Shown here in pieces: positions 3,447 to 16,222 of a stretch of DNA of 41,582 nt. The stretch lies in the IMG/VR virus record IMGVR_UViG_3300032118_003142, positions 1-41,582 of that record. One strand, given 5' to 3'. This DNA comes from a virus. A program made the translations under genes and the position numbers. The notes beneath the pieces are model-generated. The model was not told the origin of the DNA and searched no databases. It saw only the letters and a program-made list of their open reading frames with translations. How positions within the stretch are numbered: the stretch's first letter is position 1; every line of letters begins with the position of its first letter.

Positions 3447-3552
3447 GTTTCCCCGAAAGTTTCTGAAAAATTGCGGGGAAAAGGGGCGGATTCAGGTAAG
3501 TTGCCGAAGGCCCGGGCGGGTGCGAACCCGGGTCCCACGACGAGGGCAGTGC

Positions 3553-4812
3553 ATGGATGAGTTCCGAGCATTCATCGAAGAAGTGAAGGACCGGGCGGAT
3601 CTGCTGCGGGAGATCGAGGCCGGGGGCGAGTACGTCTTCGAGACCGGGAAGCGGGGGAAGTATGTCTACTGCAAGCACCCGGACAGCCTAGCCGTGGACG
3701 TCGACTGGCATCAATACACGTGGTTCGCGAAGCCCGGCGGGCCCGGGCATGAGTACGAGACGGGCGACGTCTTCGACTGGCTGCAGCGCTATCGCAGTAT
3801 GGACTTCTGGGACGCGGCCACGTACCTGGCGCAGAAGTACGGGGTGCGGATCCCAGAACTGAAGCACAGTGAGCCCAGCGAGGCTGCCAAGAGCTACCAG
3901 GCGCGGGGGGAGCTGTACACGCTGGTGCACCAGTGGCTGTTGAAGCAGCTATGGGGCACGCCGGCGGCGCTGGACTACTGCAGGCGAGCCGATGGCGGCC
4001 GGGCCTGGTCGGACGAGACGATCTGTCACAAGGTGACCGCCCAGGAAGCGCTGGCCACCGGCAACCCCTACCAATTCGCACCGGCGACGATGGAAAAGGC
4101 GCATACCGTTGCTGCGGAAACAGCCGCCAACATGATCGTGGCGCGGGGCGCCGGGATCGGATACTGCCCGGGGACGGCCGAAGCCTTGGCGGAGCTGCGA
4201 GGCTGGCTCGAGACGAACGGGGCGGACCTGAAGGTGCCGGCGGCCGTTGCGATCGTCGGCCTGCAAGGCGACGTGGCAGCCTGGTGCCGGGACCATGCGA
4301 TCGAAGCGCAGAGCAACTGGCTGGAGAAGAGCCGGATCTGGGGGCTGGTCGAGTTCCCGAGGCTGATCTACACCCATTTCGGCCGGGGCGGCAAGCCGGT
4401 GTATTTCAGCGCCCGGAATCTCAAGTGGGCGGGCGAGGGAAAGCTGATCGGTGAGCCAGAGAAGGACAAAAAGTCCTACAACCCGCCGAAGTCGCTCGTT
4501 GGAGATCGGATGCTGTACTTCAACTGGCTGTTCCACAAAAAGGCCGAGGAGGTGGTGATCGTCGAGGGCCAGGCGGACGCGATCACATTGGGGGAATGGG
4601 GGATCCCAGCAATCGGCCTCAACGGGCTGGGTGCCGGGCCCGAGGTGGTGGCCATCACGCGCGACTTCCCGAAGCGATTCCTGGCTCTGGACCAGGACGC
4701 CGCCGGGCAGGCGGCGATGATCAAGGTGGCGGAGGCCTTCGGGCCGAAGGTGCGACTGGTCCAGTGGGCGGTGCCATTCCAGTTCTCCGAGGTCGATGAT
4801 GGCGAAGCGTAA
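3553..4812 (+). CDS. DnaG-like primase with Toprim domain
   Basis: The protein has 419 residues and would synthesise primers for phage DNA replication. I chose ATG 3553 (GAGGG upstream); an in-frame start at 3520 would add 11 residues. The N-terminal ~90 residues resemble the primase zinc-binding region ('YVYCKHPDSLAVDVDWHQYTW', 'GDVFDWLQRYRSMDFWDAATYL'). The usual C-x2-C pair is replaced by 'WFAKPGGPG', so the ribbon is degenerate. The Toprim core follows near residues 330-400: 'VVIVEGQADAITLGEWGI' with the catalytic Glu, then 'FLALDQDAAGQAAM' with the D-x-D. It overlaps the ATPase gene by 17 nt, forming a primase-helicase pair. The middle region is unassigned. Confidence 0.8.
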   Translation: MDEFRAFIEEVKDRADLLREIEAGGEYVFETGKRGKYVYCKHPDSLAVDVDWHQYTWFAKPGGPGHEYETGDVFDWLQRYRSMDFWDAATYLAQKYGVRIPELKHSEPSEAAKSYQARGELYTLVHQWLLKQLWGTPAALDYCRRADGGRAWSDETICHKVTAQEALATGNPYQFAPATMEKAHTVAAETAANMIVARGAGIGYCPGTAEALAELRGWLETNGADLKVPAAVAIVGLQGDVAAWCRDHAIEAQSNWLEKSRIWGLVEFPRLIYTHFGRGGKPVYFSARNLKWAGEGKLIGEPEKDKKSYNPPKSLVGDRMLYFNWLFHKKAEEVVIVEGQADAITLGEWGIPAIGLNGLGAGPEVVAITRDFPKRFLALDQDAAGQAAMIKVAEAFGPKVRLVQWAVPFQFSEVDDGEA

Positions 4813-6766
4813 GGGCGCCCAGGCAGCTTCAGCCCCTCTGTCGCCTGCGGCGGAGATTGCTTCGTCGGGGCAGAGCGCCCCTTCTCGCAACGACGTGCGC
4901 AAGCTGGATGCGAACCAGCTGCTCCAGGACTGGAAGGCGGCCGGGATCGCGGCCGAGGGGCAACGTCTCCAGATCCGCGCGATGCTGTCGCACTCCAAGC
5001 CGCTGATCCTGGCGATGGCCGAGCAGGTGGGCAATCCGGAGAAGGGCCCTTCGCGGAACGGCGCCGCTTCGGGGAGCATCCAGGATGAGGATGACCGGCG
5101 GGCGGCGGTCAAGCACATTGTGCAGCTGGCCAAGCAAATGGGGGATGACTATCAATACTACGAGAAACGGATCGCGGATGCGATGGGGATGAAGCCGACG
5201 GAGCTCCCGGGTCGGCCGGAGAAGAAACGGGGGAAGGCCAAGAAGGACGATGAGAAGGCAACCCAGAGGGCGGGCGGGTGGATCCACGAGCATCTGATCG
5301 AGCTGCTGTATGACGCTGAGCAGGACCGCACCAGCTTTGCCGTGCGGTTCCCGGACGGCCGGATCGAGGAGGGCCTTGACCACGTGATGATCGAGGACCA
5401 GAAGTACGTGCCGATCCCGCCGAATGCACTCATCCGGACGGTCGACGATTCGGCCGTGGTGCTGCTGCCGAGCGCCCTGGGTGAGGAACTGCAGGACCAC
5501 GAGCTGGTGGCCGTGCTGCAATCGCACAACTACAAGTACTTCGACTTCGGGGCAGAGATCTTCTTCGAAGAGCTGACGCCCCTGTGGGAGATATTCACGT
5601 ACATCTACGACGGGTTCCGGGAGGTGAGCTACCTGCGAGGCCTGGGCGACCTCGGCACGGGCAAGACCCGCTGGCTAAAGACGATCGGGAAGTGCTGCTA
5701 CCGGCCCGTGTACATCAGCGGCGGAGGCAGCGCGGCATCGATCTATCACCTGCTGCACGAGTATCGCGGCACGCTGGTGATCAATGAAGCCGACTTCAAG
5801 GACGACAGCGACGAGGCGTCGATCATCGCCAAGATCCTGAACGGTGGGACCGAGCGGGGCGAGGGCATCACCCGGATGCGGAAGGATGCCAGCGGCAACT
5901 TCGAGGTGGAAAGCTACAACGTATTCGGCCCGAAGCTGATCGCGATGCGCAAGGACTACGACGACCGGGCAATCGCCAGCCGGTGCCTGACGATGAACAT
6001 GGTGCCCTTCATGCCCGCCCCGCGCATCCCGCAATCGATGCCCAAGGAATTCGACCAGGAGTGTCGGGACATCCGGAATCTGCTGACGACCTGGCGCATG
6101 CACCGGGCCCGGCCGGACTTCGACGTCAATCCCAATGAAGCGGACCGGTCCCTGGAACCCCGGCTGAACCAGATCACGATGGGCCTGATGTCGACCGTGA
6201 GCAGCGAGCCGATGAAGGAGAAGATTCGGCTATTCCTGCGGGACTACAACGACCGGACGCGGGCGGACCGGAAGGAGAGCAAGACGGCGCGGGTGATCGA
6301 GGGCTTGGTGCTGGCCAACGCCTGGGGACCAGTGAGCAGCCACCCCTCGGACGAGAAGCGTGTGTACCTGAAGGACGTGGCCTACGCGGTCAACCAGCTG
6401 ATCGATGCGATGCGCCGGAAGATGGGCGAGGACGAAGAGGAGGAACAGGAGTTCACGACCAAGGACGGACGCACGATCAGGAGGAAGTCACAGCGGATGA
6501 CGAGTCGATCGGTGAATACGATCCTGAAGAAGCAGTGCCAGCTGCGGGTGCAGGAGACGACCGACGGGACGGACGCCTACCGAGGGACGAACGAGGTGGT
6601 GTGGGACGAGGAGCGGATCCGGGGACTGTGCGAGCGCTGGGGCGTGGCCTGGCAGGAGCGGGGCAGCGTGGAACGTCCATACGAGCTAAAGCCGGAGCCG
6701 CCGGGGATCACCCAGGCCCGGGAAGACTGGAAGAACACCGAGTTCCATGAGCCGGAGGGCCAATGA
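4796..6766 (+). CDS. Replicative helicase-like P-loop ATPase
   Basis: The protein has 656 residues and most likely unwinds DNA with the primase just upstream (17-nt overlap). The ATPase core has Walker A 'GDLGTGKTR' (about residues 284-292) and Walker B 'GTLVINEADF' (about 325-334). Later come 'GPKLIAMRKDYDDRAIASRCL', a sensor/arginine-finger-like region. This arrangement is seen in phage and plasmid primase-associated ATPases that sit where a D5/DUF927-type helicase would be. Residues 20-34 (AEIASSGQSAPSRND) are the translation of an F2 palindromic element inserted in the disordered N-terminus. The C-terminal third is highly charged with a probable winged-helix segment. An alternative start is ATG 4799. 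Confidence 0.7.
   Translation: MMAKRKGAQAASAPLSPAAEIASSGQSAPSRNDVRKLDANQLLQDWKAAGIAAEGQRLQIRAMLSHSKPLILAMAEQVGNPEKGPSRNGAASGSIQDEDDRRAAVKHIVQLAKQMGDDYQYYEKRIADAMGMKPTELPGRPEKKRGKAKKDDEKATQRAGGWIHEHLIELLYDAEQDRTSFAVRFPDGRIEEGLDHVMIEDQKYVPIPPNALIRTVDDSAVVLLPSALGEELQDHELVAVLQSHNYKYFDFGAEIFFEELTPLWEIFTYIYDGFREVSYLRGLGDLGTGKTRWLKTIGKCCYRPVYISGGGSAASIYHLLHEYRGTLVINEADFKDDSDEASIIAKILNGGTERGEGITRMRKDASGNFEVESYNVFGPKLIAMRKDYDDRAIASRCLTMNMVPFMPAPRIPQSMPKEFDQECRDIRNLLTTWRMHRARPDFDVNPNEADRSLEPRLNQITMGLMSTVSSEPMKEKIRLFLRDYNDRTRADRKESKTARVIEGLVLANAWGPVSSHPSDEKRVYLKDVAYAVNQLIDAMRRKMGEDEEEEQEFTTKDGRTIRRKSQRMTSRSVNTILKKQCQLRVQETTDGTDAYRGTNEVVWDEERIRGLCERWGVAWQERGSVERPYELKPEPPGITQAREDWKNTEFHEPEGQ
4853..4895 (+). 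repeat. F2 palindromic element, in frame
   Basis: The element begins GAGATTGCTTCGTC and ends CTCGCAACGACG. Its inner stem is GGGGC-AGAGC-GCCCC and its outer pairing is TTGC/GCAA. It is translated inside the helicase as EIASSGQSAPSRND. The second copy is at 10913. It resembles a widespread class of bacterial interspersed palindromes with the same ends. Confidence 0.65.
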
Positions 6767-6797
6767 GAGGGCAGATCTGGGGCTTGGGCCCCGGAGT

Positions 6798-6853
6798 TCC
6801 TGGACCCTCATGGGTCCAGGACCGGCCGATGACGGCTGGAAGCCGTCTCGGTC
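6798..6853 (+). repeat. F1 double-hairpin element, copy 1
   Basis: Hairpin 1 is CCTGGACCC-tcat-GGGTCCAGG (6799-6820). Hairpin 2 is GACGGC-tggaa-GCCGTC (6831-6847), with an outer CCGA/TCGG stem. The stem sequences differ from other copies but pair perfectly. It ends directly before the first GTGAAGA iteron. Confidence 0.8.
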
Positions 6854-7300
6854 GTGAAGAAGTGAAGATATTTGACCCCCTGGGGGGGCATGCAAAAAAA
6901 GTTCTGCATGCTCCAGGGCGAGATCGTGGGCGCCGGATGGCTCGATTTTGGTCCATTTTCCGCTCGAAATCGGCGATTTGTGAAGCTGGGAAGATGATGA
7001 ATGAGCAGTAGTAGTTGTTGTTGTAGCAAGTTTGTTCTATGTGAGGGCCCAAAAGTGAAGATTCGCAGGGGTTCTCTTCACGAAGTGAAGAACTTTCTTC
7101 ACTACTACTACGGTGAAAACCGCGGATATGCGAAAAATCGCAAACCCGTCCAGGGGGGCCCAGAATCTTCACTTCTTCACATTCGCGCGGACAACCTGGG
7201 CGCGAACGGGCCCGCGATGAGAAATGTGGGGGCCGCGAAGCGATCCGGGGCCGTGAAGATATGCAAATCCATTCTTCCCGAAGTGAAGATATATCTTCAC
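6854..7300. promoter_or_regulatory. Iteron-like cluster: candidate replication origin, centromere or operator
   Basis: Eleven copies of the heptamer GTGAAGA or its complement TCTTCAC occur here. Plus-strand copies start at 6854, 6862, 7055, 7085, 7253 and 7283. Minus-strand copies start at 7075, 7096, 7166, 7174 and 7294. The 15-mer GTGAAGAAGTGAAGA at 6854 recurs as its exact reverse complement at 7166. Palindromic pairs occur as GTGAAGATATATCTTCAC (7283-7300), TCTTCAC-GAA-GTGAAGA (7075-7091) and GTGAAGAA-CT-TTCTTCAC (7085-7102). Uniform base frequencies would predict about 0.05 copies. The region lies between the helicase gene and two ParB-like genes and is AT-richer than its surroundings. 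Origin, parS-like site and autoregulatory operator are all possible. Confidence 0.65.
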
Positions 7301-7363
7301 AAACTGGCTGGAATTGGAAAACCTGTTCTATTGGAAGATGGCAAAGTCAGGAATGGACGTGAA

Positions 7364-8236
7364 ATGGCCAAGCTAGCGGTGCATCTGATCCTGCCAAACC
7401 CGGACCAGCCGCGGAGCAACTTCGACGCGGAGGAACTGCGGTGCCTGGCGCAGTCGATACGCGAGCGGGGGCTGATCCAGCCCCTAGTGGTGGAGCGAGC
7501 CGCGGGAAAGCGCTTCATCCTGGTGGATGGGGAGCGCAGGCTGCGGGCCGTGAAACTGCTGGGCTGGATGAAGGTGGAGGTGGTGGTGCGGCGGGGAGTC
7601 AATCACGCGGGGCGAGGCAGGCTGGTGGATGCGCTGGTGGCGAACATCCAGCGGGAAGATCTGGGGCCGATCGACGAGGCGAAGGCCTACGCGGCGCTGC
7701 ATCACCAGCTGGGCAGCGTGCGGGCAGTCTCGGAGAAACTGGGAGTGCACGACGAGCTGATCACGAACCGGCTGAAGATGCTGAAGCTGACCGGGTCGGT
7801 GCAGGCGATGTTCCAGGCGAAGCAGTTGCCACTGGATGGGCAGCTGATCCAGCGGCTGACGGAGCTGCGGCCAGCGGAGCAGGAGCGGGCAGCAGCGACG
7901 GGCGTGGCGCGAGGCTGGACGACGTATGCGCTGCGCAAGGCGGCGGTGAAACGGCCCGGCAAGAGCAAGCCGTCGGCGGTGGAGGTGCAACCCCAGAGGA
8001 CCCTGCGGAAGTTGGCCGAGGAAGAGGCGGATGCGAAGTTGGCCGGGCATTTCGATGCGCTGGTGCTGGTGGCCGACTGGCAGAGGCTACCGAAGCCGAT
8101 CGTCGAGGTAGCACGGAAGTCATGCCAGGCCTGTATTCTTTACAAGGAAGCCCGGCGGGCGATGTGTGAGCGGTGCCCGCTGCCGGACTTCCTGGTGAGG
8201 TTCAAGCTGCAATACGTTCAAGCAGAGTCGAAATGA
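7364..8236 (+). CDS. ParB-like protein 1 (ParB/Srx nuclease-partition fold)
   Basis: This 290-residue protein has a ParB N-terminal domain: 'ILPNPDQPRSNFDAEELRCLA', 'SIRERGLIQPLVV', the CTPase/DNA-binding box 'DGERRLRA' and 'NIQREDLGPIDEAKAY'. A helix-turn-helix follows ('GSVRAVSEKLGVHDELITNRLKML'). The C-terminus has two Cys pairs (CQAC ... CERC) that could bind zinc. I start it at ATG 7364, because the frame upstream is iteron DNA, although it remains open back to 7001. The role is inferred to be partition, replication control or regulation through the GTGAAGA sites immediately upstream. No ParA ATPase is encoded in the window, so classical ParABS partition is not demonstrated. Confidence 0.75.
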   Translation: MAKLAVHLILPNPDQPRSNFDAEELRCLAQSIRERGLIQPLVVERAAGKRFILVDGERRLRAVKLLGWMKVEVVVRRGVNHAGRGRLVDALVANIQREDLGPIDEAKAYAALHHQLGSVRAVSEKLGVHDELITNRLKMLKLTGSVQAMFQAKQLPLDGQLIQRLTELRPAEQERAAATGVARGWTTYALRKAAVKRPGKSKPSAVEVQPQRTLRKLAEEEADAKLAGHFDALVLVADWQRLPKPIVEVARKSCQACILYKEARRAMCERCPLPDFLVRFKLQYVQAESK

Positions 8237-8321: not shown

Positions 8322-10061
8322 ATGAAGGAGATACGAGTTCCGCTGGAATTGATCGAGCCCAATCCGTATCAGGTGCGCCTGGCGGAGGATCCGGGGGTCG
8401 TGGAAGCGATCGCTGCGAGCATCGAGACGAACGGGCTGTTGCAGGTGCCGACCGCACGGCCTTCGACGGTGCAGCGCCCGGACGGGAAGTACGGCTGGCA
8501 ACTGGCCTTCGGGCACTCGCGCTTCGCGGCATACACGTACCTGGCCAGCCAGGGCAAGGCCGAATTTGTGGACATGCCGCTGGTGATGCGCGAGCTCACC
8601 GATCGGCAGATGTTCGAGATGGCCGTGGCGGAGAACGTACAGCGGCGGGACCTGAGCCCGATCGAGGAGGCCCAGGCGATGTGGCGCGCCACGGACGACT
8701 TCAAGCTGACGTCGGCCGAGGTCGGGGTGCTCTTCGGCATGTCGGACGCAACCGTGCGCGGCAAGATGCGGCTGCTGGACTTGCCCCAGCAGGTCCGGGC
8801 GCAGGTGCAATCCGGCGAACTGACCGAGGGCGTGAGCCGATCACTGCTGACGGCCGCCAAGGTGCTGCCCGAGAAGCGGATCGTGGTGATGGCGAAGGAG
8901 ATGGCGAAGGGCGGCTACCAGGACGCGTCGGAGATCGTCGGCAACGAGCTGCGGCTGGGCATGCACGAGATGTGGGGCCGCTGGGACAAGGACAAGGAGC
9001 CCCGCGGCGGGGATCAGCTGTGGCCGTTGCCGTGGAAACACCCAGGGCTGCCGGAGCTGACGCCGGGGGAGGCGGTGAAGGCGCTGGAGCTGAAGATCAA
9101 GCCGCAGCAGATCAAGGGCCTGATCGACGCGGCGAATGACGGCACCGACTTCAAGGGCGATGGATCGGAGGATCCCGAACTGGTGCAGAAGATCCAGCTG
9201 CTGGTGAACCCGCCGATATGTACCGAGTGCCCGGTGTATGTGCGCCTGGATGGTGTGCATTACTGCGGTCTGAAGTCCTGCTGGAGCCGGAAGAAGAGTG
9301 CGTTCGTGCAGCAGGAGTTCGCCAAGGTTGTAGCGGCGACGGGCATCGCCGAATACGACAAGGCCAAGGATGGGCCGGTGCGGAAGTCTGACTGGAACAG
9401 CCGCGAGGCTTTCAAGAAGCTGTTCAAGGAGAAGGATGAATTCCTGCGGCTCGTCCTGCACCTGAGCGATTACCATGCTGACGACATCACCGGCAGTCAT
9501 TACGCGGCCGTGGTGGATGTGAAGCCGAAGCGAGTGGAGGCAGCTAAGGAGAGGAAAGCGGCGGGGCAAAGCGCTTATTCCGGCGTCACTCCCTCGACTC
9601 CCCAGGAAAAAGCCAAACAAGAACGGGAAAGCCAGCTGAGAGATAAGGCCCAGGAATTCTGTGAAGCGGCGATTCCCGTGTTCGCGGAAGCTCTTAAAGG
9701 ACTGGAGAACGTCGCGGTCCTAAAGGAATTAGCGAGGGCTACGGGCACATTCAGTTTTCCGTCGGATGCGCTCCCAAAAGCAAAGCGACTGCAAATCCTG
9801 AGACAGGACGTAACCAACAACCTGATGGAAGAGGGCGACATCCTGCCTTTTGACTTCTTCCATAAAGGTCCTGTGATCGTTGCGAAGCACCTGGAGAAAG
9901 TGGCGGCGGAGTGGGGCGTGAAGCTGCCGAAGGACTGGCACGAGCGGGCGCAGAAGATGATGCCTATCCCTGCGACTCATGTCGCAGGGACTGGCGATGC
10001 GGGCTCGAAGCCCGCTCGCGGCGGGCGCAAGAAGAAGAGCAAGGAGAAGAAGAAGAGCTGA
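8322..10061 (+). CDS. ParB-like protein 2, large, with zinc-cluster domain
   Basis: This 579-residue protein has a ParB-type N-terminus: 'IEPNPYQVRLAEDPGVVEAIA', 'TNGLLQVP', 'LAFGHSRFAAY' at the position of GERRxRA, and 'NVQRRDLSPIEEAQAMW'. A helix-turn-helix comes next ('LTSAEVGVLFGMSDATVRGKMRLL'). The middle has a Cys-rich box (CTECPVYVRLDGVHYCGLKSC) like those in large phage and plasmid ParB homologues. The C-terminal half is helical and charged. Residues ~549-568 (ATHVAGTGDAGSKPARGG) are an in-frame F1 element, followed by a lysine-rich tail. It is clearly different from ParB1, so the genome carries two divergent ParB-like proteins. Targets are unknown. The GTGAAGA cluster is the obvious candidate. 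Confidence 0.75.
   Translation: MKEIRVPLELIEPNPYQVRLAEDPGVVEAIAASIETNGLLQVPTARPSTVQRPDGKYGWQLAFGHSRFAAYTYLASQGKAEFVDMPLVMRELTDRQMFEMAVAENVQRRDLSPIEEAQAMWRATDDFKLTSAEVGVLFGMSDATVRGKMRLLDLPQQVRAQVQSGELTEGVSRSLLTAAKVLPEKRIVVMAKEMAKGGYQDASEIVGNELRLGMHEMWGRWDKDKEPRGGDQLWPLPWKHPGLPELTPGEAVKALELKIKPQQIKGLIDAANDGTDFKGDGSEDPELVQKIQLLVNPPICTECPVYVRLDGVHYCGLKSCWSRKKSAFVQQEFAKVVAATGIAEYDKAKDGPVRKSDWNSREAFKKLFKEKDEFLRLVLHLSDYHADDITGSHYAAVVDVKPKRVEAAKERKAAGQSAYSGVTPSTPQEKAKQERESQLRDKAQEFCEAAIPVFAEALKGLENVAVLKELARATGTFSFPSDALPKAKRLQILRQDVTNNLMEEGDILPFDFFHKGPVIVAKHLEKVAAEWGVKLPKDWHERAQKMMPIPATHVAGTGDAGSKPARGGRKKKSKEKKKS
9967..10025 (+). repeat. F1 double-hairpin element, copy 3, in frame in ParB2
   Basis: Hairpin 1 is TCCCTGCGAC-tcat-GTCGCAGGGA (9967-9990). 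Hairpin 2 is GCGGGC-tcgaa-GCCCGC (9999-10015). The tail is TCGCGGCGGG. It is translated as part of the ParB2 C-terminus. Confidence 0.85.
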
Positions 10062-13373: not shown

Positions 13374-13741
13374 GTAAATCCCCAGATGGTGGCCTTGGAG
13401 CGTCATATGCCCATAACCGGCGCGGAGCCGAGAGGCGCGGACTCGCTTGGGAGCTAAACCGCGATGCGTATAAGGTGCTTGTACAACAGGATTGTTTCTA
13501 CTGTGGGATACCAGCACAAACAGATAATCCGCGCATGGCTCCGCGCGTTGGAATAGATCGGATAGACAACGATCTCGGTTATGTGGATGGGAATGTGGTG
13601 CCCTGTTGCATGGATTGTAACCGGATGAAATCAGTCTTCACGCTAGATCACTTCTACGCAAAAATCGGCTTGATTTCAAGGGAACACACCGTGGAAATCC
13701 GTGCGGCCCTCTTGGCTCGGCAACTATGCCATGAAGATTGA
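13370..13741 (+). CDS. HNH-family endonuclease-like protein
   Basis: The protein has 123 residues. It carries the small phage HNH signature: 'DCFYCGIPA' (first Cys pair), 'VGIDRIDNDLGYVDGNVVPCC' (the D-R-x-D-N and G-Y-x-x-x-N core), and 'CMDCNRMKSVFTLDHF' (second Cys pair and terminal H). These would form a beta-beta-alpha metal site held by a zinc knuckle. Such stand-alone proteins are either homing endonucleases or packaging-linked nickases. This one is not next to the terminase genes. It overlaps the glycosyltransferase start by 11 nt. Confidence 0.8.
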   Translation: MSKSPDGGLGASYAHNRRGAERRGLAWELNRDAYKVLVQQDCFYCGIPAQTDNPRMAPRVGIDRIDNDLGYVDGNVVPCCMDCNRMKSVFTLDHFYAKIGLISREHTVEIRAALLARQLCHED

Positions 13742-15551
13742 TTTCTTCGCGCGGCGGGCACATTTCGTCGAGCACATCGCACCGGTGTGGAAGGCCCTGG
13801 ATCCGGAGGCGCGGGGGGCCTTCTACGTTTCGGCATATCTGCGGCAGTACGCGGAGGCCCAGGGGCTCGAGGTCGTGCCGGTGCTTCCCAGACTCCCAGC
13901 CGATCCGTTGTCTGGCGCGCCGAACGGGCCGAACCCATTATTGACGTGCGCCTACGGCGATATGCTGGCGGCCTACAAAGTGCGGCCGCAGCGGCCGTTC
14001 ATCCTGATGGAGCACGGCGTAGGGCTGACGTTCAATAATCCGTCCTACGCCGGCGGCCTGGGATTGAGGCGGCAGGTGGCGCTCTTCCTGGTGCCGAACG
14101 AGCACACGCGGCTCGCGAATGCCAGGGTAATGCCGCTGACGCCGCAGGCGATCGTGGGGGTGCCCAAACTCGATGAATGGGCAGAGGCGGCTGCACTTGC
14201 GACTCATGTCGTCCTTCCAGGACCTTCGGCTAGTGCTCGTGGTGGCGGCTCGATGCCGCCCCACGTCGGAAGCCCCTGCACTTCGGGGCGAAGGCCCACT
14301 GTATGCATATCGTTCCACTGGAACGGGGCACACATTGCGCCGGAGGCGGGGAACGCGTTCCAGCATTACGCCGGGATCCTGCCTGAGCTGGCCCAGGATG
14401 AAGCCTTCACGCTGATCGGCCACGGGCATCCGAAGTTCCGCGATCTGGAGCAGCATTTCCTGGGGATGGGCATCCGGTTCGTGCGCGATTTCCGCGATGT
14501 GATGGAGCAAGCCGACGTCTACGTGAACGACTCCAGCTCGACGCTGTACGAATTCTGCGTGACGGGGAAGCCGGTCGTGATCCTGAATGCGCCGCAGTTC
14601 CGCAAGAATGTGCACCACGGCATACGGTTCTGGGAGTACAGCGATGTGGGGCCGCAGGTCAATCAGCCGGGCGAGTTGCGGGCGGCGATCGAGCAGGCGA
14701 TCGCCGAGCCAGATGTGTACCAGGTGCAGAGGGAGAAGGCGGTCCAGGATCTGTATCCGTACCTGGGTGAATCGTCGGCCAGGGCGGCGAGATGCATTGA
14801 GGATTTCCTGCAATCGAAGTGGCCCGGGGCCAAGCGGATCGATACGATCGGAGGCGAGACGATCGGGATCCTGTACATGGGCTTCGGGCGGAGGGCGGCG
14901 CTGGAGATCAGCAAGAGCCTGGGATCGCTGAAGCGCCTGGGGGTCGAGATCCCGGCGGTAGTGGTGGGGGACACGCCAGTGGCCGGTGCCGAGTTGATCC
15001 GGTGGGAGGGGGAGAGCCCGTTCGATCCGGCGCAGCGCCACAATTTCCAGTTCCGGGCCGGGCGGATCAAGCCGGACCTGTGCCGGATCACGCCGTTCGA
15101 GCGGACGCTGTACATCGATGCGGACACGGAATTCCTGGCGGACATTACGCCGGGATTCCAGTGCCTGGATGAGGTGGACCTGGCGCTGGCGGAGGAACTG
15201 CTGGCGCTCGGGCAGCTGTACAACAAGCCGCGAGCCGGGTGGGAGATCAACATGATCGAGAGGGACGCGACGATCCAGGAGCTGGGAGGCAATCCGAACC
15301 GGAAGTTTCTGAATTCAGGGGTGATCTTTTTCCGCAGATCCGAAGCGACGCTGAAGCTCTTCGAGGAGTGGCGCCGGCAGTGGCTGCGGTGGCAGCAGTG
15401 GGATGAGCAGCTGGCGCTGATGCGGGCGATCCATGCGTGCGGCATCCGATACAAGGCGCTGAGCCCGGACTGGAATCATCCGCACCGCGGCCAAGCGAAG
15501 ATCATCTTCCACAACTACGGCAGAGGGACGGCCAGAGTCGATGGCCGATAA
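13731..15551 (+). CDS. Two-domain glycosyltransferase (GT-B CDP-glycerol-type plus GT-A)
   Basis: The protein has 606 residues. Residues 1-~370 resemble CDP-glycerol glycerophosphotransferase-like or other GT-B enzymes: 'KIDFFARRAHFVEHIAPVWKAL' at the start, 'FTLIGHGHPKF', and 'DVYVNDSSSTLYEFCVTGKP' with the typical S/T-rich nucleotide-sugar loop. Residues ~380-606 form a GT-A domain with the metal-binding D-x-D in 'TLYIDADTEFL' (~461-468) and 'FLNSGVIFFRRSEATLKLFEEW', as in GT8-like enzymes. The two could sequentially decorate a host surface polymer, virion or DNA. Residues ~156-187 are an in-frame F1 element at a surface position. It is followed by a methyltransferase. The acceptor is unknown. 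Confidence 0.7.
   Translation: MKIDFFARRAHFVEHIAPVWKALDPEARGAFYVSAYLRQYAEAQGLEVVPVLPRLPADPLSGAPNGPNPLLTCAYGDMLAAYKVRPQRPFILMEHGVGLTFNNPSYAGGLGLRRQVALFLVPNEHTRLANARVMPLTPQAIVGVPKLDEWAEAAALATHVVLPGPSASARGGGSMPPHVGSPCTSGRRPTVCISFHWNGAHIAPEAGNAFQHYAGILPELAQDEAFTLIGHGHPKFRDLEQHFLGMGIRFVRDFRDVMEQADVYVNDSSSTLYEFCVTGKPVVILNAPQFRKNVHHGIRFWEYSDVGPQVNQPGELRAAIEQAIAEPDVYQVQREKAVQDLYPYLGESSARAARCIEDFLQSKWPGAKRIDTIGGETIGILYMGFGRRAALEISKSLGSLKRLGVEIPAVVVGDTPVAGAELIRWEGESPFDPAQRHNFQFRAGRIKPDLCRITPFERTLYIDADTEFLADITPGFQCLDEVDLALAEELLALGQLYNKPRAGWEINMIERDATIQELGGNPNRKFLNSGVIFFRRSEATLKLFEEWRRQWLRWQQWDEQLALMRAIHACGIRYKALSPDWNHPHRGQAKIIFHNYGRGTARVDGR
14198..14289 (+). repeat. F1 element, copy 5, divergent, in frame in glycosyltransferase
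   Basis: GCGAC-tcat-GTCG starts it. GTGG-T-GGCGGC-tcgat-GCCGCC-CCAC (~14240-14264) is hairpin 2, with an altered but paired outer stem. A third hairpin, GCCCC (14272-14276)/GGGGC (14285-14289), ends it. Confidence 0.75.
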
Positions 15552-15595
15552 ACCGCATCGCTTTATCACAGCGCGGAAGTGAGAAGGAGAGTCTG

Positions 15596-16222
15596 ATGAA
15601 CGCTGATGAGATCATGAAGAAGGCCAGCCCGATCCCGACGTGGCTAAGCGACGAGGAGAAGCTGCGGCTGGCGACCATGGCCATGGAAGTGCCGCCTGGC
15701 GGGACGATCGTGGAGGTGGGAGCGCTGTACGGCGGCTCGACGGCGCTCCTGGCCCTCGGCCAGCCCGAGGCGGCCGTGTATACGTATGATGATTTCTCCT
15801 GGTCGCCGATCGGGGACCGGCCGCCGGCCAGCGCCGGGCAGCTGAATAGGAGCCTGCAGGACCTGGGGATCCGTAACGTGCGCATCGTCGAAGGAGACAG
15901 CCGCGAGACGGGGAAGCTGTGGCAAGGTCCGATCGATCTGCTTTGGCTCGATGGCGGGCATAGCTACGAATACATTCACGCGGACCTGGCCAATTTCGGC
16001 CCCTGGGCGAAGCGGATCGCGTGCCACGACTGGCAGAATCCAGCCTGGGAGCCGGTGACAAAGGCGATCACGGACTTCCTGCGCGAGCATGCGGAGTGGA
16101 GGATCGGCGCGGTGGTCGACATGCTGGTGGAGTTGTGGCGGCCGGAGCCATGCTGGTGGATTTGTGGCGGCCGGAGCCATGACAGGCACAACTGGCCCTA
16201 TGGATGGCATAGGAGGAAGTGA
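15596..16222 (+). CDS. Class I SAM-dependent methyltransferase, C-terminus extended by a 29-nt duplication
   Basis: The protein has 208 residues from ATG 15596 (AAGGAGAG upstream). Motif I is 'GTIVEVGALYGGSTALLAL' (37-55), the acidic motif II loop is 'YTYDDFSW' (62-69), and 'IDLLWLDGGHSYEYIHADL' (113-131) plus 'IACHDW' (141-146) match Methyltransf_24-type enzymes. Those often sit in sugar or small-molecule gene clusters. It directly follows the glycosyltransferase, so a methylated glycan is plausible. A 29-nt tandem duplication (16121-16149/16150-16178) shifts the frame. Without it the protein would stop after '...WRPEP' at residue 185, so the last 23 residues are new. Confidence 0.75.
   Translation: MNADEIMKKASPIPTWLSDEEKLRLATMAMEVPPGGTIVEVGALYGGSTALLALGQPEAAVYTYDDFSWSPIGDRPPASAGQLNRSLQDLGIRNVRIVEGDSRETGKLWQGPIDLLWLDGGHSYEYIHADLANFGPWAKRIACHDWQNPAWEPVTKAITDFLREHAEWRIGAVVDMLVELWRPEPCWWICGGRSHDRHNWPYGWHRRK
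16121..16178 (+). repeat. 29-bp tandem duplication
   Basis: Two adjacent 29-nt copies (16121-16149 and 16150-16178) differ at one base. The unit begins ATGCTGGTGGA and ends GGCCGGAGCC. Because 29 is not a multiple of 3, it moves the methyltransferase frame past its original stop. Confidence 0.9.

Follow-up and report, generated by a model that had tools for sequence, protein, structure and literature searches.

A cluster of eleven copies of the heptamer GTGAAGA, lying between a helicase gene and a ParB-like gene in the genome of an uncultivated virus, is very probably a phage replication origin of the P4/SaPI type, and the protein encoded by the helicase gene immediately upstream probably binds it. 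The sequence analyzed (the window) is the whole of IMG/VR record IMGVR_UViG_3300032118_003142, which is 41,582 bases long. Diverged relatives keep the array in the same place on the 3′ side of this gene, with an AT-rich tract between two sets of iterons; the helicase resembles the D5 and SaPI helicases in fold, and seven relatives searched as whole records have no ParB family match above the cut-off. The array is thus a conserved and directly testable candidate origin in an uncultivated phage family whose helicase belongs to no Pfam or PHROG family; it ties this helicase to the P4/SaPI mode of replication start, a mode that these phage-like records appear to share.

The heptamer array and the genes around it

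The window has a G+C content of 62% and no terminal repeats in its 41,582 bases; there is a start codon at its first base and a stop codon at its last, as with an excised-provirus call. It contains terminase and prohead protease genes and is hence a phage-like element; since it carries these virion genes of its own, it is not a PICI or other satellite. Glycosyltransferase-like and methyltransferase-like genes are also present in the record (13701–16222). A tyrosine integrase gene (1705–2589; Pfam Phage_integrase, E 1.7e-25) opens a module common to most of the relatives discussed below, followed by a DnaG/Toprim-type primase gene (3520–4812; Toprim_2, and NCBIfam dnaG with E 7e-17) and the gene for a putative initiator helicase of 656 residues (4796–6766), which is D5/SaPI-Rep-like AAA+ by predicted fold and has the Walker A sequence GDLGTGKT. 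Two ParB-like genes lie downstream of the array (7364–8236; ParB_N, E 2.8e-21, and HTH_ParB; 8322–10061; HTH_ParB, E 2.6e-16, and ParB_N), and all five genes are on the + strand. The array begins 88 bp past the helicase stop codon and ends 64 bp before the start of the first ParB-like gene. An open frame (7001–8236) that runs across the array was not counted as a gene; in the protein that starts at 7364, the ParB domain already begins at residue 3. Directly after the helicase stop, three consecutive hairpins on the + strand (6776–6854) have a folding energy of −33.4 kcal/mol, compared to −16.8 in shuffled sequences (z −7.0). They might act as a transcription stop or as a barrier ahead of the origin, and phage P4 has an annotated terminator in the matching place, between alpha and crr.

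The preliminary description of this DNA had reported eleven GTGAAGA heptamers in positions 6854–7300, and all of them are indeed exact copies, six on the + strand (6854, 6862, 7055, 7085, 7253, and 7283) and five on the − strand (7075, 7096, 7166, 7174, and 7294), in a region where about 0.05–0.1 copies are expected. Window-wide there are 20 copies compared to 4.5 in shuffles, and the nine outside the array are scattered. When the intergenic region (6767–7362) was shuffled 2000 times, the mean number of GTGAAGA copies was 0.09 and the maximum was two, and no heptamer of any kind occurred more than six times. The array cannot be due to chance. It is also the strongest 7-mer cluster in the whole record (the runner-up has five copies). 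The symmetry elements described earlier are present as well: a perfect 18-bp palindrome at 7283–7300 (GTGAAGATATATCTTCAC), overlapping palindromes at 7075–7102, and a 15-mer at 6854 whose exact reverse complement lies at 7166–7180.

From left to right, the array consists of an outer iteron pair, GTGAAGA-A-GTGAAGA (6854–6868, + strand); a degenerate inner left pair (6980–6994, + strand), GTGAAGC at 6980 and GGGAAGA at 6988, which lines up with the left pair conserved among the relatives; a candidate unwinding region (7008–7043); a conserved right iteron set (7055–7102, with iterons at 7055 +, 7075 −, 7085 +, and 7096 −); the inverted copy of the outer 15-mer (7166–7180, − strand); and a diverged duplicate (7253–7300) of the four-iteron block 7055–7102, to which it is identical at 35 of 48 bases at an offset of 198. 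This duplicate includes a further GGGAAGA at 7273 and ends in the 18-bp palindrome. The candidate unwinding region has a G+C content of 36%; few 36-mers of the intergenic region have so little G+C, and window-wide the share that does is just 0.27%. The GC skew is uninformative, being positive almost throughout the window with no switch that would mark an origin, and the window contains no DnaA box (TTWTNCACA) of the kind expected at a DnaA-dependent origin.

Conservation of the array in diverged relatives

The first 24 kb of the window matched nothing in a DNA search of a phage collection, and single-sequence searches of IMG/VR with the first ParB-like protein and with the helicase returned no relatives. 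Scans of IMG/VR by heptamer pattern turned up dense arrays in non-coding DNA; at three of these loci (L247, L261, and L267), the protein encoded directly before the array is 48, 42, and 40% identical to the window helicase, respectively. A profile built from these three proteins and that of the window, a search in which the heptamer played no part, found 16 diverged relatives in IMG/VR (39–54% identity). The relatives share the primase-helicase module, with a primase homolog directly before the helicase in nearly all, and 12 of the 16 have an integrase homolog (30–45% identical), some of the loci being cut short. A helicase fragment 31% identical over 154 amino acids is encoded by virus Rctr41k (KX853513), where an integrase lies just before the fragment; GTGAAGA does not occur within the initial 26 kb of that record, which counts against the proposed link between helicase and array.

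Conservation statistics were taken from the 11 relatives whose contigs had not been returned by the heptamer scans, using the 600 bp 3′ of the helicase stop, expected counts from other stretches of the same loci and 5000 random same-locus draws. There are 20 copies of GTGAAGA (2.3 expected), 61 of GTGAA[GC][AG] (7.8 expected) and 33 of ATATATA (0.9 expected), numbers that none of the 5000 draws reached for any of the three motifs; the reversed heptamer, at two copies compared to 0.6, is not significantly enriched there (p 0.11). The most enriched 6-mer 3′ of the helicase is AGTGAA, which is found in 15 of 15 loci. Conservation in relatives had been proposed as a check on the array, and it is kept 3′ of the helicase gene in these diverged phages, with clusters in that place in most of them.

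Alignment reveals a common plan, in which a left iteron pair is followed by an AT-rich tract (GTAAGTATATATAT), a right iteron and a triple unit TTCAC..GTGAA..TTCAC. In the window the triple unit is 7075–7102, and eight relatives have it in an identical layout. The conserved part is the core at 6976–7103, not the outer 15-mer pair. The low-GC tract at 7008–7043 occupies the place of the relatives' GTAAGTATATATAT tract, and here the window aligns most closely with L311. The layout of two iteron sets around an AT-rich tract is clear in the relatives but less so in the window, whose own candidate unwinding tract is weaker than those of its relatives and contains no ATATATA, and whose inner left iteron set is degenerate.

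The iteron itself varies within the family. The window has 11 GTGAAGA copies in the first 600 bp past the helicase stop and the relatives have 0–8; L316, L318, and L320 have no exact copy there and carry GTGAACA, GTGAACG, or GTGAGG-like variants instead, and in L316 a cluster lies about 1.2 kb away. On the helicase tree, GTGAAG[AG] is found in the half that includes the window and GTGAACA in five members of one clade in the other half. This pattern, which comprises few phylogenetic events, is suggestive only, but it would fit an iteron that drifts along with its helicase. With its switch from a GTGAAGA to a GTGAACA iteron between helicase clades, the family is a natural set for mapping the helicase residues that read the iteron.

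The genes beyond the array differ between relatives. The window has its ParB-like genes there, seven relatives (L313, L314, L316, L318, L320, L321, and L324) have an identified actin-like gene (ALP_N and MreB-like_C) 1.9–3.6 kb 3′ of the helicase stop, and L322 has a HerA/FtsK-like ATPase gene; segregation-type genes thus appear to have been exchanged next to a constant origin module. The helicase is the likely reader of the array, since the array stays with it while the downstream genes change. None of the relatives that keep the array has a ParB gene near it, and a ParB_N search of seven relatives as whole records gave no match above the family cut-off, which argues that the array belongs to the helicase.

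The helicase as putative initiator and other possible roles of the array

The helicase matches no Pfam, PHROG, or NCBIfam family, and sequence profiles detect no homology between it and the P4 alpha, D5/D5_N, or VapE proteins. Its AlphaFold model is mediocre (pLDDT 70). In a Foldseek comparison of the model with the PDB, it matched the C-terminal region of the phage NrS-1 primase-polymerase (7.7e-7), the D5/E5 helicase (MPXV E5, 1.3e-5), the SaPI5 primase-helicase (1.6e-4), and SCCmec Cch (6e-4), as well as PriRep1, with low TM-scores (0.2–0.3). The predicted structure indicates a D5/SF3-like AAA+ helicase, with which the primase gene upstream forms a pair, and a winged-helix-like order of elements in the model makes approximately residues 525–615, near the C-terminus, a candidate winged-helix region.

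Initiators of this kind are known to act on repeats beside their own genes. PICI origins lie immediately 3′ of the rep/initiator gene and have two iteron sets around an AT-rich region (PMC6092414), the C-terminal domain of SaPI Rep binds iterons downstream of its own gene and Cch2 requires AAGTG iterons just downstream of its gene (PMC7581432), and the winged helix of P4 alpha binds the origin repeats (PMC4234260). Direct comparison with P4 shows that crr is directly 3′ of alpha, and the annotated type 1 ori repeats are GGTGAACA or close variants. In both P4 and the window, the origin (putative in the window) comes immediately after the initiator gene, on its 3′ side, the short iterons occur in the two orientations, one iteron block is duplicated, and a Toprim primase is combined with an AAA+ helicase. 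The iterons are also comparable, GGTGAACA in P4 as against GTGAAGA in the window and GTGAACA in one clade of its relatives. On the other hand, P4 alpha combines in a single fused protein what the window encodes in two genes, with no detected sequence homology between the helicases, P4 has a second site, ori, elsewhere in its genome, and P4 is a satellite whereas the window carries genes for a terminase and a prohead protease. The SaPI/PICI rep-ori arrangement agrees with that of the window family in having a separate primase gene and then a helicase gene with the origin (putative in the window family) immediately 3′, and in its two iteron sets flanking an AT-rich region (clear in the relatives). 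The window helicase matches the SaPI5 primase-helicase and PriRep1 in fold, yet it is unrelated in sequence at the Pfam level, and the SaPIs and PICIs are satellite islands, unlike this phage-like record with its integrase and virion genes. Like the SCCmec proteins Cch and Cch2, the window helicase is proposed to act on repeats that closely follow its own gene; Cch is among its fold matches and the SCCmec iteron AAGTG is contained in AAGTGAAGA, but SCCmec has three 5-nt iterons rather than eleven heptamers and a polymerase-type rather than a Toprim primase.

In the proposed mechanism, the helicase probably binds GTGAAGA through its C-terminal domain at two iteron sets, one on each side of the low-GC tract at 7008–7043. 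There it would form two AAA+ rings and melt the low-GC DNA, on which the DnaG/Toprim primase would make the first primers, so that replication would start at the array.

Three other roles may be weighed against an origin read by the helicase. The least improbable, though still unlikely, is a dual role peculiar to this lineage, in which the array is the helicase's origin and the additional elements at 7253–7300 and 7166–7180 serve as a ParB partition or handcuffing site. Such a role might explain why the window has 11 copies where its relatives have 0–8, and why several additional copies are found between the core and the ParB genes; however, nothing indicates that a ParB protein reads GTGAAGA, and P4 crr also has a duplicated iteron block (120 bp) with no ParB gene annotated.

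The preliminary description had offered the array as either a replication origin or a centromere bound by one of the adjacent ParB-like proteins. The conserved array 3′ of the helicase and the AT-rich tract between iteron sets favor the first half of that proposal, and the second half is not supported: it is very unlikely that the array is a parS-like centromere with which ParB1 or ParB2 segregates the phage as a plasmid-prophage. As in ParB-parS systems, ParB-like genes adjoin the array, two of them in succession with the first only 64 bp beyond it, its inward repeats TCTTCAC-NNN-GTGAAGA (7075–7091 and 7273–7289) resemble inverted ParB half-sites, and some relatives have an actin-like segregation gene downstream. 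Nevertheless, no site in the window matches the parS consensus TGTTTCACGTGAAACA with up to three mismatches, relatives without a neighboring ParB gene retain the array, the seven whole relative records have no ParB_N match above the cut-off, and a centromere would not be expected to contain an AT-rich unwinding tract. The position of the array follows the helicase and not the segregation gene, which in the relatives is 1.9–3.6 kb away; a type II partition site of the ParM-parC kind was rejected on the same grounds.

Equally improbable is an operator at which a repressor, ParB included, controls the genes from 7364 onward: the array does precede the next gene in an intergenic position, and iteron arrays often also control initiator or neighboring genes, but the array is constant while the downstream genes vary among relatives, its AT-rich tract and two-set layout fit origins, and a search of the coding strand gave no promoter-like site.

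Occurrence of the heptamer beyond the helicase family

In the heptamer-only scans, arrays also turned up next to other kinds of primase-helicase, namely VapE (L101, L106, L126, and L251), DUF5906 (L019 and L249), D5_N (L270), and Prim-Pol proteins (L136 and L147). GTGAA-type iterons are therefore recurrent, but they are not universal, since VapE and DUF5906 loci sampled from three bacterial classes have no general downstream enrichment of GTGAA[GC]A. It is possible, but rather doubtful, that GTGAA[GC]A is the recognition word of a broad group of D5/SF3-like initiator helicases, either ancestral or repeatedly reinvented, that would take in P4 alpha, the window family and several VapE, DUF5906, D5_N, and Prim-Pol families of uncultivated phages. 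If it were, many metagenomic phage origins could be read directly from their sequences, and iteron variants could be matched to helicase clades.

A control scan with the reversed heptamer returned 25 stretches compared to 65 for the GTGAAGA pattern. A few of the control clusters (L294, L297, and L304) are also dense, so a cluster alone is no proof of an origin. The reversed sequence AGAAGTG is especially dense at L304:1211–1688 (15 copies) and L297:529–731 (10 copies), which are possibly unrelated iteron arrays. Several matches to the GTGAAGA pattern were discarded as coding or non-origin repeats, including direct GTGAAGAAGTAAAGAAG repeats in L033, dispersed repeats in the Vibrio loci L192 and L205, and L185, which lies beside a glycosyltransferase gene.

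Very dense GTGAAGA arrays accompanied by TATATA tracts are present at L181:172–657 (24 copies), L147:8220–8530 (14), L177:7257–7568 (14), and L170:7889–8105 (10). These four are viral contigs with G+C contents of 38–67%, and the L147 array lies near the gene for a 1125-aa Prim-Pol protein. Finally, a contig of Candidatus Aenigmatarchaeota has a GTGAAGA array (L224:6572–6842) beside an AAA ATPase gene with a weak ORC-CDC6-like match; this array could be an archaeal origin.
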